Shown: in pieces, positions 44,216 to 51,234 of the stretch
Numbering within the stretch: position 1 is the stretch's first letter
Layout: each line of letters opens with the position of its first letter
Assembly (NCBI RefSeq): GCF_023657595.1
Contig: NZ_CP098323.1
Span: 1,140,001-1,204,000, forward strand
Direction: 5' to 3'
DNA length: 64,000 nt
Origin: Cytobacillus firmus
GTDB lineage: Bacteria > Bacillota > Bacilli > Bacillales > Cytobacillaceae
Notes under the pieces: model-generated
Told to the model about the DNA's origin: nothing
What the model saw: the letters and a program-made list of their open reading frames with translations, nothing else
Databases searched by the model: none
Position numbers and translations under genes: made by a program

Positions 44216-44306
44216 GCTGTAATTTGTTACAAGCTTATGAAGAGACTACTCATCAATCCTCTTGTTGGTTCATAGATTATGGTAAGGACTAAAAGGGGGA
44301 GTGGCA

Positions 44307-45719
44307 ATGCGGGAGGAAGATAATAAATCATTGGAATATGCCATTCAGGAAATTACTGAAATTGCAAATGGGTTTGGCTTGGACTATTACCCTATGAGGT
44401 ATGAAATTTGCCCTGCAGAAATCATTTATACATTTGGCGCTTATGGCATGCCGACCAGGTTTTCGCATTGGAGCTTTGGAAAACAGTTTCATAAAATGAA
44501 GCTGCATTATGATTTAGGTTTATCAAAAATTTATGAGCTTGTAATCAACTCGGATCCCTGCTATGCGTTTCTGCTTGATTCCAATACCCTTATCCAAAAC
44601 AAATTAATTGTGGCGCATGTTTTAGCACACTGCGATTTCTTTAAAAATAATGTCCGTTTTCAAAACACAAAGAGGGACATGGTAGAGAGCATGGCTGCCA
44701 CCGCTGAAAGAATAAGGCGGTATGAAATTGAGTTTGGGAAAAAGGAAGTGGAAACTTTCCTTGATGCCGTGCTGGCAATTGAAGAACATATTGATCCGTC
44801 TCTAATGAGGCCGAAGCTAGCCTGGAGTACAGATGATGAATATGAAAGCAGCGGTGATACAGCAGCGGCCAGCCCTTATGATGATTTATGGGATTTGGAT
44901 GAAAGAAACAAGAAGCATGTACCAAAGAAGAAAAATAAGAAATTCCCTCCGAAACCAGAAAAAGATTTACTGCTGTTTATAGAGAGCTACAGCAGGGAGC
45001 TAACCGACTGGCAGCGGGATATATTAACGATGATGCGGGAAGAAATGCTCTATTTTTGGCCGCAGCTGGAAACTAAAATTATGAACGAAGGCTGGGCATC
45101 GTATTGGCATCAGCGCATCTTAAGGGAAATGGATTTGACATCTGCTGAAGCGCTGGAATTTGCAAAGTTGAATGCAGGGGTTGTGCAGCCGTCCAGAACC
45201 GGAATCAATCCATATTATCTGGGTCTGAAGATTTTTGAAGATATTGAAGAACGATATAACAATCCGACTGAGGAAATGAAGAGGCGCGGTGCAGTGCCAA
45301 ATTCAGGCCGGGAAAAAATGTTCGAGGTTCGTGAAATCGAGTCAGATATATCATTTTTAAGAAATTATTTAACAAAAGACCTTGTTATGAGAGAAGATAT
45401 GTATCTGTTCCAAAAACAGGGTAAGGATTATAAAGTAGTGGATAAACAGTGGGAGCATGTGCGCGATCAGCTTGTCAGCATGCGTGTAAATGGAGGATTC
45501 CCATATTTGACGGTTAATGACGGCGATTATATGAAGAATGGTGAACTATACTTAAAGCACTGGTTTGAAGGTGTAGAGCTTGATCTTAAATATCTTGAAA
45601 AAGTACTCCCATATGTACACCAGCTTTGGGGCAGAGGCGTCCATATGGAAACCATTGTTGAAGGCAAGAACATGCTTTTCACTTACGATGGAAAGAGCAT
45701 CCACAGAAAATATTTATAA
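44307..45719 (+). CDS. spoVR: stage V sporulation protein R
   Basis: A 470-residue SpoVR/YcgB protein required for normal spore cortex in B. subtilis. Conserved stretches are [52 protein letters not shown] and [13 protein letters not shown], the last two with His/Glu residues typical of a metal centre. ATG 44307 is favoured over GTG 44301 by spacing from GGGGGA. With prkA and yhbH it completes the conserved three-protein group in this window. Confidence 0.96.
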
Positions 45720-45727
45720 AAATGACG

Positions 45728-45763
45728 GACGAACCAAAGTATGTTTTGGTTCGTCTTTTTTTG
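45728..45763 (+). terminator. terminator after spoVR
   Basis: GACGAACCAAA / TTTGGTTCGTC stem followed by TTTTTTT. Confidence 0.92.
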
Positions 45764-45942
45764 GCTGGGCTGCAAACATGTTTTTTTAAAATGGGCAGAA
45801 TAAAACTAAATACTTTCCTTCTCAAGGAGTATTGAAGTAATATTAACGTGTACAGGCGGGGGTATAGAAAGGTAACTAAATGCCTCCCTGATATTAATAT
45901 TTTCTTTACAGCCATTGATAAACTGAGGAAAGGATGATGATC

Positions 45943-46221
45943 ATGAAAATTACGGATTCAGCTCGGGATCTATTGAAAAAGATTCTTCAAGAGAAAAATA
46001 CTGGCGGCATTAGAGTTTATTTTGCAGGCTTTGGCTGAGGAGGCCCTCAAATTGGACTGGCTCTGGATGAGCCGGAAGCAGATGATATAATCGAAACTAT
46101 AAATGAAATACAGGTGGCGATCGACCCGGAAATCAAGCCGCATACGGAAAGTATGATTCTTGATCATGATCAGGATAATGAAAGACTGGTCCTGTTAGGC
46201 AATGACAGTGACTGCTGCTAA
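45943..46221 (+). CDS. HesB/IscA-like selenoprotein (in-frame TGA = Sec32)
   Basis: The frame from ATG 45943 encodes 92 residues with one internal TGA at 46036-46038. Around it the protein reads RVYFAGFG-U-GGPQIGLALDE, the HesB-like selenoprotein motif where Cys variants have C in place of U; the C-terminus ends NDSDCC. The frame on both sides of TGA is conserved-looking and ends in a proper TAA with terminator, so a nonsense mutation is unlikely. A hairpin 18 bases after the TGA fits a bacterial SECIS. HesB/IscA proteins handle iron-sulfur clusters or thiols. AAAGGATG lies upstream; ATG 45934 is an alternative start. Without selA/selB/selC/selD in the genome this reading would fail. Confidence 0.85.
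46057..46075 (+). promoter_or_regulatory. candidate bacterial SECIS element
   Basis: CTGGCTC (46057-46063) pairs with GAGCCGG (46069-46075) over seven positions, closing a five-base loop TGGAT with the expected loop G residues. The loop starts 25 bases after the TGA, inside the usual range for SelB-recognised hairpins. Confidence 0.7.
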
Positions 46222-46224
46222 TGA

Positions 46225-46247
46225 AAAACACCCACGCGGGTGTTTTT
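46225..46247 (+). terminator. terminator after the selenoprotein gene
   Basis: AACACCC-ACGC-GGGTGTT hairpin followed by TTT. Confidence 0.85.
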
Positions 46248-46265
46248 CTATTTGTAAAAAAGGTA

Positions 46266-46333: not shown

Positions 46334-46678
46334 ATGCTGCTGATTTTTTTAACCTTGCTGCTAGTTAGCTTCCCATTATTTAAAAGGTATTATCCTATTA
46401 AAAATATACCTTGTTATCATTTGGATCAATGCCTGCCCAAGGAAGGCATAGCCCTGCTGGATGTCAGGGATTATAATGATTCCTGTCATTGTGAAATACC
46501 CGGAGCGATCAATCTGCCCATTCCATATATCAATAGGCATATAAACGATATACCTTATAACCAAATCCATTTAGTTGCCTCCAGCTCTTTAGAGAAAAAT
46601 GTTGGAGTAAGGCTGCTGCGAAAAAAAGGGTTTAAGATAGTTGGTTTTTCAATGCCTGATTGTCACTGTGTAAAATAA
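46334..46678 (+). CDS. membrane-anchored degenerate rhodanese-like protein
   Basis: A 114-residue protein with an N-terminal helix (MLLIFLTLLLVSFPLF) and one rhodanese fold (ALLDVRDYNDSCHCEIPGAINLP). The active-site loop, normally CxxGxRS, reads VASSSLEKNVG at 81-91: the catalytic Cys is missing. Two CHC motifs (51-53 and 110-112) could instead bind metal or persulfide. It is the first gene of the CstR-controlled unit, directly before cstR. Confidence 0.8.
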   Translation: MLLIFLTLLLVSFPLFKRYYPIKNIPCYHLDQCLPKEGIALLDVRDYNDSCHCEIPGAINLPIPYINRHINDIPYNQIHLVASSSLEKNVGVRLLRKKGFKIVGFSMPDCHCVK

Positions 46679-46699
46679 AACTAAAATGGGGTGAAGCGT

Positions 46700-46960
46700 G
46701 TGTTATACGATGCAAAAACTAAAAATCGAATCAAAAGGGCGGAGGGCCAGCTTAGAGGGATTTTAAAAATGATGGAGGATGAAAAAGATTGCAAATCTGT
46801 CATTACCCAGCTAACAGCTTCAAGATCAGCAATTGATAAAGCAATTGCAGTTATTGTCAGTTCCAATCTTGAACAATGTATTGTTGAAAACGCTGAAAAG
46901 GGAATTGAGAGTTCCATCATGATTGAAGAGGCTGTCAACTTACTTGTTAAAAGCAGATGA
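46700..46960 (+). CDS. cstR: persulfide-sensing repressor CstR
   Basis: An 86-residue CsoR-family (DUF156) repressor, the same length as Staphylococcus aureus CstR. Cys31 (in DEKDCKSVITQL) and Cys60 (in SSNLEQCIVE) match the two CstR sensing cysteines, while the copper-ligating His of CsoR is absent (Asn56 region), so it should sense sulfane sulfur rather than copper. GTG 46700 has GGGGTGA six bases upstream; GTG 46691 overlaps that site. Three matching operators lie in this locus. Confidence 0.92.
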   Translation: MLYDAKTKNRIKRAEGQLRGILKMMEDEKDCKSVITQLTASRSAIDKAIAVIVSSNLEQCIVENAEKGIESSIMIEEAVNLLVKSR

Positions 46961-46967
46961 TGGTTAG

Positions 46968-47013
46968 TTGACTTCCTTTTTTTATTTAGTTATAATATAC
47001 CCCATAAGGTATA
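46968..47013 (+). promoter_or_regulatory. sigma-A promoter with CstR-type operator 2
   Basis: TTGACT (46968-46973) and TATAAT (46991-46996) are 17 bases apart; ATATACCCC-ATA-AGGTATA (46995-47013) overlaps the -10 box. It drives the two small rhodanese genes. Confidence 0.8.
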
Positions 47014-47053
47014 AAAACAAAAAGCGTTATCACATAAATTTGGAGGTAAGCAA

Positions 47054-47413
47054 ATGACTATTGCAAATGGAATCATTATCGCCCTGCTAATTATTTTTCT
47101 CGTTCAGAAGCTGATTCCAGTAAAGGGCGTAAAGCAGATGACAACTGCTCAGCTGAAGAATGAAATGAAGGATAAAACAAAGCAATACATTGATGTGAGA
47201 ACAACAGCTGAATTTAAAAGCTTCCATATTCCAGGATTTAAGAACATGCCTCTTCATCAGCTACACCAGAATCTGGGAGAGCTATCAAGAGATAAGGAAG
47301 TTGTTGTTATCTGTCAAAGCGGAATGAGAAGCAGCAAAGCAAGTAAAATTCTAAAAAAAGCCGGATATAAGAACATTACAAACATCAAAGGCGGAGTAAG
47401 CGCCTGGAGATAA
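47054..47413 (+). CDS. membrane-anchored rhodanese
   Basis: A 119-residue sulfurtransferase with an N-terminal membrane helix (NGIIIALLIIFLVQKLI) and a single rhodanese domain. The active loop is CQSGMRSS with Cys87, preceded by QYIDVRTTAEF. It probably accepts sulfane sulfur at the membrane. ATG 47054 follows GGAGG; the next rhodanese gene is 15 bases downstream in the same CstR-controlled unit. Confidence 0.9.
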   Translation: MTIANGIIIALLIIFLVQKLIPVKGVKQMTTAQLKNEMKDKTKQYIDVRTTAEFKSFHIPGFKNMPLHQLHQNLGELSRDKEVVVICQSGMRSSKASKILKKAGYKNITNIKGGVSAWR

Positions 47414-47428
47414 AGGGGAGAATATTAA

Positions 47429-47722
47429 ATGAAAACAATGACTGTTAATGAAGTAGAGCAGCAGCTTGCTGCCGGAGTAAAGTTAAATATCATTGATGTG
47501 CGGGAAGTTGATGAAGTAAAAGAAGGAAAGATAGCTTCAGCTATTCATATTCCGCTTGGACTAATTGAATTTCGTATGCATGAGCTGGATAAGAATCAGG
47601 AATATGTTATGGTTTGCCGATCAGGCAACCGCAGCGGATTAGCTGCACGATTTCTTGAAGGACAGGGGTTTAGTGTCATTAACATGCTTGGAGGTATGAT
47701 GAACTGGGAAGGACCATTATAG
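47429..47722 (+). CDS. cytoplasmic single-domain rhodanese
   Basis: A 97-residue soluble sulfurtransferase with IIDVREVDEVKEGKI and active loop CRSGNRSG (Cys63), typical of persulfide-carrying rhodaneses. It has no membrane helix, so it could receive sulfur from the membrane-anchored paralogue just upstream. GGGGAG precedes ATG 47429. Confidence 0.92.
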   Translation: MKTMTVNEVEQQLAAGVKLNIIDVREVDEVKEGKIASAIHIPLGLIEFRMHELDKNQEYVMVCRSGNRSGLAARFLEGQGFSVINMLGGMMNWEGPL

Positions 47723-47752
47723 TATTGATCTGCAAACGGCCATTAACAGGTG

Positions 47753-47798
47753 TTGACAGAAAGTCAAATTTACTCTAGTATATACCCTGTAAGGTATT
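47753..47798 (+). promoter_or_regulatory. sigma-A promoter with CstR-type operator 3
   Basis: TTGACA (47753-47758) and TAGTAT (47776-47781) are 17 bases apart; TATACCC-TGTA-AGGTATT (47781-47798) follows the -10. It drives the dsrE-tusA-dioxygenase-tauE operon. Confidence 0.8.
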
Positions 47799-47874
47799 TG
47801 GATTCGTTTTAAAAGCTTATAACAAATAAATAAATTTTTTTGATTATAAAAATACCCAAAGGGAGGATAAAAGA

Positions 47875-48351
47875 TTGGAAAAGAAAAAAACAACAATCGT
47901 TCTATTCAGCGGAGATTATGACAAGGTGATGGCGGCTTATATCATTGCAAACGGTGCAGCTGCTTACGATCATGAGGTAACCATCTTTCACACATTCTGG
48001 GGACTGAATGCTCTTAGAAAAGATGAGCCAATTCAAGTCAAAAAAACTTTTATGGAAAAAATGTTTGGCAAAATGATGCCAAGAGGTCCGGAAAAAATGG
48101 GATTATCGAAGATGAATATGGCTGGAATGGGTCCTAAGATGATCAAAGATATTATGAAAAAGCACAACACTATGCCAGTTAAAGACTTGATTGAATTGGC
48201 AAAAGAACAGGATGTTAAGCTGGTAGCCTGTCAAATGACTGTCGACCTTCTTGGATTTAAACAGGAAGAAATCATTGATGGTGTGGAATATGCCGGTGTA
48301 GCTGCATATCTTGCAGATGCAGAAGACGGCAATGTCAACTTATTTATCTAA
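47875..48351 (+). CDS. yrkE: DsrE/DsrF-like sulfur-relay protein, YrkE-like
   Basis: A 158-residue DsrE-family protein. The N-terminus IVLFSGDYDKVMAAYIIANGA and the Met/Lys-rich loop (KMFGKMMPRGPEKMG) are typical of YrkE-type members, and Cys near 121 (VACQMTVDLLG) is the expected persulfide carrier. It would hand sulfur to TusA domains encoded next. TTG 47875 follows GGGAGG. Confidence 0.92.
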   Translation: MEKKKTTIVLFSGDYDKVMAAYIIANGAAAYDHEVTIFHTFWGLNALRKDEPIQVKKTFMEKMFGKMMPRGPEKMGLSKMNMAGMGPKMIKDIMKKHNTMPVKDLIELAKEQDVKLVACQMTVDLLGFKQEEIIDGVEYAGVAAYLADAEDGNVNLFI

Positions 48352-48372
48352 ATTTATAAGGAGGAATATTAA

Positions 48373-48951
48373 ATGGAAACGTTAAAAACAAACTCTTCAG
48401 TAGATGCAAAGGGGCTTGCCTGCCCAATGCCGATTGTAAGAACGAAAAAGGCAATCACTAATCTGAATCCGGGGGAAGTACTTGAGGTCCTTGCAACAGA
48501 TAAAGGTTCAAAAGCAGATATTCAGGCTTGGGCAAAAAGCTCTGGACATCAATATCTTGGCACAATGGAAGAAGGCGAAGTGCTTAAGCATTATATACGA
48601 AAAGCAGGTGAAAATGAAGAGCGCGAAGCTGCAACTTTTGAGCCTGTTGCCTCTAACGATGATCTCTTAAAAGAGATAGATTCTAATGATGATCTTGTTG
48701 TTCTCGATGTCAGGGAACCTGCTGAATATGCATTCGGCCATATTCCCAATGCTGTTTCGATTCCCTTCGGAGAATTGGAGGAAAGAATTAGCGAGCTGAA
48801 CCAGGATAAAAAGATTTTTGTAGTATGCCGTACAGGGAGCCGAAGTGATATGGCATCCCAGGTATTAGCTGAAAAAGGCTTCTCAAATGTAATTAATGTA
48901 GTTCCGGGAATGTCCGAATGGAATGGACCGACAGAAACGAAGCTTAACTAA
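48373..48951 (+). CDS. yrkF: TusA-rhodanese fusion, YrkF-like
   Basis: A 192-residue fusion: TusA domain (1-80) with LACPMPIV and Cys17, then rhodanese domain (90-190) with VLDVREPAEYAFGHIP and active loop CRTGSRS (Cys152). It resembles part of S. aureus CstA, in which rhodanese, TusA and DsrE are fused; here DsrE is the separate gene upstream. The protein can shuttle sulfane sulfur between both cysteines. GGAGGAA precedes ATG 48373. Confidence 0.92.
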   Translation: METLKTNSSVDAKGLACPMPIVRTKKAITNLNPGEVLEVLATDKGSKADIQAWAKSSGHQYLGTMEEGEVLKHYIRKAGENEEREAATFEPVASNDDLLKEIDSNDDLVVLDVREPAEYAFGHIPNAVSIPFGELEERISELNQDKKIFVVCRTGSRSDMASQVLAEKGFSNVINVVPGMSEWNGPTETKLN

Positions 48952-48992
48952 AATTTTTTAAACTAAATTATACATCAGGGGGTATTTAAACG

Positions 48993-50114
48993 ATGAAAGC
49001 AATGACTGCTAGTGAAGTAACAAAAAAGGTTATTCATAATGAAGAATTATTTATACTTGATGTACGTAATGAAACCGACTTTAACGATTGGAAGATTGAA
49101 GGCAAAAACTTTGAATACTTGAATGTTCCATACTTCGACCTTCTTGATGGAGTGGAACCTATTCTTGATAAAATTCCGGCTGATAAAGAGCTTTTAGTAG
49201 TGTGTGCAAAAGAAGGTTCTTCTGTCATGGTCGCAGAAATGCTTGAAGAAGCAGGACGAGATGCTTCCTACCTCGCAGGAGGGATGAAATCATGGAGTGA
49301 ACACCTTGAGCCTGTTAAAGTGGGAGATTTAAAGGATGGCGGAGAAATGTATCAATTCGTCCGCATTGGAAAAGGCTGCCTTTCCTACATGGTGATTTCA
49401 AACGGTGAAGCTGCAATCGTCGATGCCACAAGAATGACAGGCGTATTTACTGATTTTGCTGCTGAAAAGAATGCAGAGATCAAGCATGTCTTTGACACAC
49501 ATCTCCATGCAGATCATATTTCTGGCGGACGCAAAATTGCTGAAAAAACGGGTGCTTCCTACTGGCTTCCTCCTAAAGATGCTGAAGAAGTAACATTTGA
49601 ATACAGCCGTCTTGAAGATGGAAACGAAGTCATGATTGGTTCTACTAAAATCAGCATTCAAGCTATTTACTCACCAGGCCATACAATAGGTTCAACATCT
49701 TTTGTAGTGGACGATCAATACCTTCTTTCAGGTGATATTCTATTCATCGATTCTATCGGACGTCCTGACCTCGCCGGTAAAGCCGGGGATTGGGCTGGAG
49801 ATTTAAGAGAAACACTTTATAAACGCTATAAAGACCTATCAGGCGAATTAGTTGTTATGCCTGCACACTTCATGATTATTGAAGAATTAAATGAGGATGG
49901 CAGCGTATCCGAAAAACTTGGCACATTATTTGCTAAAAATCACGGATTAAACATTGAAGACGAAGGTGAGTTCAGAAAGTTAGTTTCTGAAAATCTTCCT
50001 CCTCAGCCTAATGCTTATCAGGAAATCCGCGAAACAAATATGGGAAAAATCAGCCCGGACGAAGAAAAACAGCGTGAGATGGAAATCGGTCCAAATCGCT
50101 GTGCTGTAAGATAA
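48993..50114 (+). CDS. yrkH: rhodanese-persulfide dioxygenase fusion (CstB/YrkH-like)
   Basis: A 373-residue protein joining an N-terminal rhodanese domain (1-110; Cys71 in CAKEGSS) to a metallo-beta-lactamase-fold persulfide dioxygenase (115-370). The iron site is seen as H170-x-H172-x-D174-H175, then SPGHT near 229, SGDILF with bridging Asp, and PAHF. It would oxidise persulfide to sulfite and/or thiosulfate. Domain order is the reverse of S. aureus CstB. GGGGGT precedes ATG 48993. Confidence 0.93.
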
Positions 50115-50165
50115 TTTTTTGAAGGATTTATCAAAAACTAATAATAAAAATTGGAGGAATGAAAT

Positions 50166-50393
50166 ATGAACGCAGCAAAAATACTGGATGCAAAAGGTTT
50201 AGCTTGCCCAATGCCAATCGTAAAAACGAAGAAAGCAATAGGTGAAATCGAATCAGGGCAAGTGCTTGAAGTTCATACAACAGACAAAGGAGCAGTTAAA
50301 GATTTGGCTGCCTGGACAGAGTCAACAGGACATGAGCTTTTAAAACATGAGGATGACAATGGAGTGTTAAAGTTCTGGATAAAAAAAGGCTGA
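50166..50393 (+). CDS. yrkI: TusA-family sulfur carrier, YrkI-like
   Basis: A 75-residue TusA protein with LACPMPIVKTKKAI (Cys persulfide site near 14) and EVHTTDKGAVKDLAAW. It is closely similar to the TusA domain of the preceding fusion and probably arose by duplication. GGAGGAATGAAAT precedes ATG 50166. Confidence 0.95.
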   Translation: MNAAKILDAKGLACPMPIVKTKKAIGEIESGQVLEVHTTDKGAVKDLAAWTESTGHELLKHEDDNGVLKFWIKKG

Positions 50394-50457
50394 TCTATTG
50401 AAAAGATAAAAGGGGGTCTGCGCTCCCTTTTATTGCTTAAAAGGAGGGGATGGCCAC

Positions 50458-51234
50458 ATGGATTTTACTTTTTTGATCGTTATATTTTTAATTGGTTTTA
50501 TCGGGTCTTATATTTCCGGAATGGTGGGAATTGGCGGCTCAATCATTAAATACCCAATGCTATTATACATTCCGCCGTTATTTGAATTAGCTGCTTTTTC
50601 TGCTCATGAAGTATCCGGAATCAGTGCAGTACAGGTCTTCTTTGCTACAATCGGAGGTGTATGGGCCTACAGGAAAGGCGGATATCTGAATAAGACACTA
50701 ATTATTTATATGGGTTCAGCCATACTGGCCGGAAGTTTAATCGGAAGCTATGGTTCAAGGTTTATGACTGAAGGCGGCATTAACCTTGTATATGGTGTTT
50801 TAGCTTTAATTGCTGCCATCATGATGTTTGTGCCGAAAAAAGGCTTGGATGATATCCCTTTGGATCAAGTAAAGTTCAATAAATGGCTTGCAGCCTTCTT
50901 TGCTTTGATTGTCGGCATCGGGGCTGGTATCGTCGGTGCAGCAGGTGCCTTTTTACTGGTTCCTATTATGCTGGTAGTATTGAAGATTCCTACAAGGATG
51001 ACGATTGCGACATCACTGGCAATCACATTTATTTCATCGATTGGATCTACAGCTGGTAAATTGGCAACCGGACAGGTAGACTATGTTCCTGCAGCCGTTA
51101 TGATTATTGCCAGCTTAATTGCTTCTCCATTAGGAGCTGCTTCAGGAAAGAAAGTAAATACAAAAATTCTTCAAATTATTTTGGCTGTACTAATACTGGC
51201 TACATCCATTAAAATCTGGATGGATATTTTATAA
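50458..51234 (+). CDS. yrkJ: TauE/SafE-type sulfite exporter, YrkJ-like
   Basis: A 258-residue membrane protein with eight helices and the duplicated TauE motif: [16 protein letters not shown] near 21 and [16 protein letters not shown] near 160. In cst operons it is proposed to export sulfite or another sulfur oxyanion. AAAAGGAGGGG precedes the ATG. A small hairpin (AAAAGGG/CCCTTTT, 50409-50434) between yrkI and this gene may attenuate transcription. Confidence 0.93.

Follow-up and report, generated by a model that had tools for sequence, protein, structure and literature searches.

The window, the whole 64,000-nucleotide stretch of Cytobacillus firmus DNA that we analysed, carries a putative hesB-like selenoprotein gene at 45943..46221 (+). 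The frame opens with an ATG at 45943, runs over 92 codons and closes with a TAA at 46219-46221. It is interrupted at codon 32 by an in-frame TGA (46036..46038, +), which we read as selenocysteine (Sec) and which falls in the same alignment column as the conserved cysteine of IscA. A ribosome-binding stretch, AGGAAAGG, was recognized by eye at 45926..45933 (+), and a terminator-like hairpin lies directly 3' of the gene (46223..46248, +). The preliminary description of the locus had listed a ribosome-binding site, a TGA at codon 32, coding capacity up to a normal stop and a terminator, and all of these were recovered. Two further features are found within the gene: a SECIS-type hairpin at 46057..46075 (+), with a 7-bp stem and a UGGAU loop, which begins 21 nt after the T of the TGA, and the terminal Cys-Cys codons at 46213..46218 (+), whose products C91 and C92 are the proposed co-ligands of Sec32.

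The upstream neighbour is a SpoVR family gene (44301..45719, +), behind which lies a separate terminator-like site (45727-45756). Since such hairpins follow both genes, the hesB-like gene looks, from its sequence context, like a unit of its own. Downstream, a rhodanese-like gene (46334..46678, +; 20.2 bits in Pfam, below the cut-off of 22.2) is the first of a CsoR/rhodanese/DsrE2/TusA/TauE sulfur-transfer cluster (46334-51234). This cluster comprises the weak rhodanese-like protein, by eye without active-site cysteine, a CsoR-type repressor, two single rhodaneses, a DsrE2-like protein, a TusA-rhodanese fusion, a rhodanese-metallo-hydrolase fusion, a TusA-like protein and a TauE exporter.

Fold and family of the encoded protein

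The protein obtained by reading through the TGA reaches the Pfam family Fe-S_biosyn (27.8 bits, gathering score 26.3), and a six-frame search of the genome that also read through TGA gave 25.4 bits, just under that score. Three other members of this Pfam family, all without TGA, are encoded in the same genome. In NCBIfam the two best matches are the models TIGR01911 (HesB_rel_seleno, 48.9 bits) and NF038090 (IscA_HesB_Se, 45.8 bits), whose cut-offs of 66.35 and 85 bits are not reached. This shortfall in score speaks against a plain family label. Both models also recognize each of 13 diverse family members (E <= 0.001).

A sequence search yielded two solved relatives, whose conserved cysteine aligns with Sec32, and an AlphaFold model of the protein (pLDDT 79.6) is closest to E. 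coli IscA (1s98, TM 0.80). Model confidence is low at the C-terminus (pLDDT below 50 for residues 89-92), so that the model does not fix the geometry of Sec32 relative to C91 and C92. In the alignment, 68 of the 79 Sec-type proteins terminate in Cys-Cys, all 79 have a cysteine within the last six residues, and C91 is invariant in the 13 diverse members.

Arsenic operons near HesB-like selenoprotein genes

A second HesB-like selenoprotein gene was found in the same genome at C1:2966150-2966425 (-), in locus L064 (2964500-2968000). It lies 37 nt after arsC, in the order arsB-arsC-hesB, and has a terminator-like hairpin, recognized by eye, on its downstream side. The preliminary description had neither this copy nor any link to arsenic genes; its reading of the window gene as a selenoprotein is upheld below.

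After ars genes had been seen beside L064, L051, L067, L079 and L109, larger flanks were taken for 60 loci from the match list. The resulting set of 72 Sec/TAA loci includes the five first-seen genes and ten loci from another collection (L104-L113), nine of which are the same genes as in the match list. By raw count, ArsA, ArsB, ArsC or ArsD is encoded at 34 of the 72 loci, and no ars gene occurs in the examined flanks of the other 38. A co-directional ars gene lies upstream in 32 loci, in 26 of them with a gap of at most 150 nt. These 32 loci come from 31 genomes, 15 genera and four families, numbers that overstate independence because the Sec set is phylogenetically related. The usual gene orders are arsR-B-C-hesB and B-C-D-A-hesB. 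Among stretches with a Cys-type gene, scored for presence alone, ars genes were found in 14 of 20, or in 14 of 19 certain Cys forms, since one of the 20 (L201, no ars gene) is the same fragment as L103, which is unalignable at the Sec column. The three IscA-type loci of the genome under study have no ars gene within 1.5-kb flanks (0/3).

A gene resembling a dual-specificity phosphatase (by eye; cluster 13, e.g. L133) lies near hesB in 10 of the 72 loci. In the available part of the report on Bacillus sp. CDB3, such a phosphatase gene, orf8, follows the HesB-like orf7 in ars1 (PMC4562236).

The window copy and its orthologues

The window itself contains no ars gene, so that no co-directional one precedes the window copy; one does precede the paralogue in L064 and the syntenic orthologue in L109. 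The latter (genome G012; the same locus as L040) begins 5 nt after arsA and ends an arsR-B-C-D-A operon, and downstream of it the synteny is that of the window, with relatives of the rhodanese and CsoR genes. The orthologue in L043 likewise stands directly after arsA with the downstream synteny of the window, and that in L041 follows an arsA-like stretch. In a tree of the family, the window clade (17 rows, support 99/96) unites ars-linked and unlinked genes. This tree, built on 92 columns with unsettled bootstrap and midpoint rooting, was used for the window clade only, and its ars labels are incomplete: L041, L043, other 1.5-kb loci, L138 and L148 are marked 'no' despite nearby ars genes. Loss of the ars operon at the window gene is the most economical history; conceivably, the operon-linked state arose from a stand-alone copy instead.

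The L109 record is titled Pseudomonas sp. ISL-84, and its protein is 84% identical to that of the window and groups with the window's genus. Another record (L106), titled Paenibacillus sp. FSL R5-0490, encodes a protein 93% identical to that of the window. Both organism names look wrong.

The surroundings of the window gene also lend themselves to a more conventional reading, to which we give appreciable weight, short of an even chance: the product would be a selenoprotein with an ordinary role as Fe-S carrier or in redox chemistry, possibly tied to the downstream sulfur-transfer cluster, and the arsenic link would concern other family members only. The gene adjoins that cluster; in 14 of 19 loci of the genus, window included (L026-L044, 1.5-kb flanks), the orthologue has close relatives of the cluster's first rhodanese or CsoR genes at its side; no ars gene is present in the window, and the fold is that of IscA. 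Against this reading stand the terminator-like hairpin that closes the gene itself and the L109, L043 and L041 orthologues, which follow arsA or, in L041, an arsA-like stretch.

Conservation of the in-frame TGA and selection on both sides of it

Of seventy homologous loci chosen, all but L103 align at the Sec column, which leaves 69. The column holds TGA in 52 homologues, a cysteine codon in 16 and TAA in one; because the choice from the match list was made in part so as to cover Cys forms, the ratio of TGA to Cys is not a frequency. The preliminary description had placed the TGA at the Sec/Cys position of the family, and the alignment agrees with this. Two of the 52 TGA homologues are otherwise damaged (L044 and L102). 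Among 18 orthologues of the genus, dN/dS is 0.095 before the TGA and 0.132 after it. The 60-codon open frame that follows the TGA has a probability of about 0.056 of occurring by chance (uniform-codon estimate) and is, taken alone, weak evidence.

These data bear on the notion that the TGA is a regulated stop, with a functional 31-residue product and incidental read-through. To our knowledge, decoding of UGA as selenocysteine is never complete, which counts in its favour. We nevertheless regard it as very improbable: codons 33-92 are under selection, C91 near the far end is invariant in the diverse members, and the 16 Cys-type homologues have no stop at this column.

The single TAA occurs in a genome of another genus (G067, L051/L154). 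The tRNA-Sec of that genome has the anticodon TCA, and the arsA gene beside the TAA copy is cut down to a 73-residue match; in the sister genome G044 the column holds TGA and arsA is long. On these grounds a role of UAA as Sec codon in this TAA-bearing genome was rejected in favour of decay, which explains the data more simply, and the hesB locus of G067 looks like a decaying operon. Another departure is seen in genome G025, where a Cys form (TGT; L084/L182) is nested among the Sec forms of the window's genus. This genome keeps selA and no SECIS-type fold was found at the locus, which probably represents a Sec-to-Cys change.

A SECIS-type hairpin downstream of the TGA

The bacterial SECIS element is a hairpin located shortly after the UGA, with a G in its apical loop. 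The window gene presents such a hairpin. Over the 52 TGA genes, 353 of 364 stem cells are paired, versus 36 of 112 in the 16 Cys homologues. When only distinct sequences are kept (28), 185 of 196 cells are paired; shifting one arm by 1-3 positions lowers this to 39-94 of 196. The loop reads UGGAU in 50 of the 52 TGA genes and UGGAG in the remaining 2. Within the stem, the leucine codon at +9 is CTG in all 52 Sec genes and in none of the 16 Cys genes, and the glutamate codon at +11 is GAG in 51 of 52; codon +13 is not part of the stem and reads GAA in 40 of 52. This codon choice within the stem is the clearest sign of a recoding signal.

Folding energies point in the same direction, with a mean z of -1.18 for the 52 TGA genes versus +0.59 for the 16 Cys genes (Mann-Whitney p 2e-5). 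Taken singly, the window hairpin has moderate z-scores of -2.35 and -2.44 (the former against synonymous shuffles), and its stem arises in 1.6% of synonymous recodings; the case thus rests on conservation, through which alone the stem convinces. An exact pattern drawn from the signal matches the genome twice, in the window gene and in the paralogue, and hence once in the window. At gathering scores, Rfam returned no SECIS family match in the window, its matches being a tRNA and SAM and purine riboswitches. The apical-loop G is named in a figure legend within the available part of PMC1794560.

Selenocysteine machinery of the genome

We searched the genome, a single contig of 4,981,461 bases (4.98 Mb), for the components needed to insert selenocysteine. 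It encodes a tRNA-Sec (58 bits, gathering score 47) with anticodon TCA, SelA (547.3 bits), SelB (370.2 bits) and SelD (424.7 bits), the last with its own TGA read as Sec in the motif GGUGC. The preliminary description had proposed this search and would have abandoned its reading had the sel genes been absent; all four are there. Some 0.9 kb beyond selA of this genome, at 3788-3853 of L025, there is a Bacillaceae-1 RNA (Rfam RF01690, 77.4 bits).

In a sample of 201 genomes, selA scores above its cut-off in all 92 genomes for which the matches listed include a TGA form, versus 54 of 109 others, where weaker TGA forms may exist; the Fisher probability of 8e-19 overstates the weight of this association, because the genomes are related and TGA forms were counted only among the matches listed. 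The 54 genomes that have selA and no TGA form among the matches listed indicate that seleno-HesB is not the only reason to keep selenocysteine. Within the bacterium's own family, selA scores above cut-off in 106 of 121 sampled genomes. The earlier opinion that selenoproteins are rare in Bacillaceae finds no support in this count; it matches the older literature, a 2006 survey giving, in its available part, only 3 selenoproteins for Bacillales (PMC1794560).

Among the families examined (SelD, HesB-like, formate dehydrogenase, ArsM), the selenoproteins found in this genome are SelD and the two HesB-like proteins. Formate dehydrogenase was discarded as a further candidate, no stop being seen in any match listed, and so was ArsM, whose listed matches have no stop, are all weak and do not reach the cut-off.

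Taken together, the sequence evidence makes it highly probable, at about 95%, that the window gene is a genuine selenoprotein gene with UGA codon 32 read as selenocysteine. Decay does occur in the HesB-like family, as the TAA copy of G067 beside its arsA remnant and the damaged L044 and L102 genes attest, but a nonsense mutation or sequencing error in a decaying copy is even less credible here than a regulated stop, given the TGA shared by 52 homologues, the dN/dS of 0.132 past it, the conserved hairpin and the presence of the sel genes.

Proposed function

UGA codon 32 would be decoded as selenocysteine by SelB and tRNA-Sec, aided by the hairpin just downstream. The predicted product is a 92-residue protein of IscA fold, in which Sec32 would replace the conserved cysteine and the chain would end in Cys-Cys. 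By analogy with IscA, Sec32 and C91/C92 may form a site for a soft metal or metalloid. If this site bound As(III), the protein could act beside ArsD and ArsA as a chaperone or buffer, passing As(III) on or holding it. Given the IscA fold, it is equally likely that the protein would repair Fe-S centres damaged by arsenite. The window copy itself seems to descend from a copy in an ars operon and to have become independent of it.

An arsenic role of the family, in metalloid or Fe-S chemistry under arsenic stress, is suggested by the gene neighbourhoods and is put forward tentatively. The full proposal is equally tentative: the Bacillaceae HesB-like selenoproteins may be arsenite-handling proteins, either As(III) chaperones or Fe-S rescue factors, with one selenium and two sulfur ligands, encoded at the very end of arsRBCDA operons; the copy in the window would have left an operon of this kind and, together with the paralogue, would be one main reason why this bacterium keeps its selenocysteine machinery. 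The recurrent place at the end of ars operons gives the family a testable job. As the formate dehydrogenase matches listed for the genome contain no stop, the ars link may also explain in part why these Bacillaceae retain a costly recoding machinery.

Comparison with known systems

HesB-like selenoproteins are a listed family in the available parts of three sources (PMC1794560, PMC5029168, PMC13188914), and Table 1 of the last gives the motif UxGP, with Sec at the conserved first cysteine. The window gene is a new member of this known family, with the same IscA/HesB fold and Sec at the same cysteine; it differs by scoring below the curated cut-offs of both models (TIGR01911, NF038090), and the Bacillaceae branch by mostly ending in Cys-Cys and often adjoining ars genes. 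The A-type carriers IscA, SufA and ErpA end in Cys-Gly-Cys. The window protein shares their fold and first cysteine column, whereas it has Sec in place of that cysteine and ends in Cys-Cys. ArsD, a metallochaperone that binds As(III) by three cysteines, is encoded nearby in many of the ars operons with hesB, and its likeness to the window protein would lie in the proposed three-ligand site alone.

HesB proteins of ars operons have been described in Bacillus sp. CDB3 (ars1 orf7; PMC4562236) and in Exiguobacterium aurantiacum SW-20 (PMC8779447), with no role assigned to them in the available parts of these papers; the string 'selen' does not occur in the available text of the former. These proteins are HesB-like, as is that of the window, and are encoded with arsD and arsA, unlike the window copy, which has no ars neighbour. 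Our search of the open-licence literature found no report of a seleno-HesB in an ars operon. The occurrence of HesB in ars operons is itself already in print, and what is new here is the link of the HesB-like selenoproteins to these operons.
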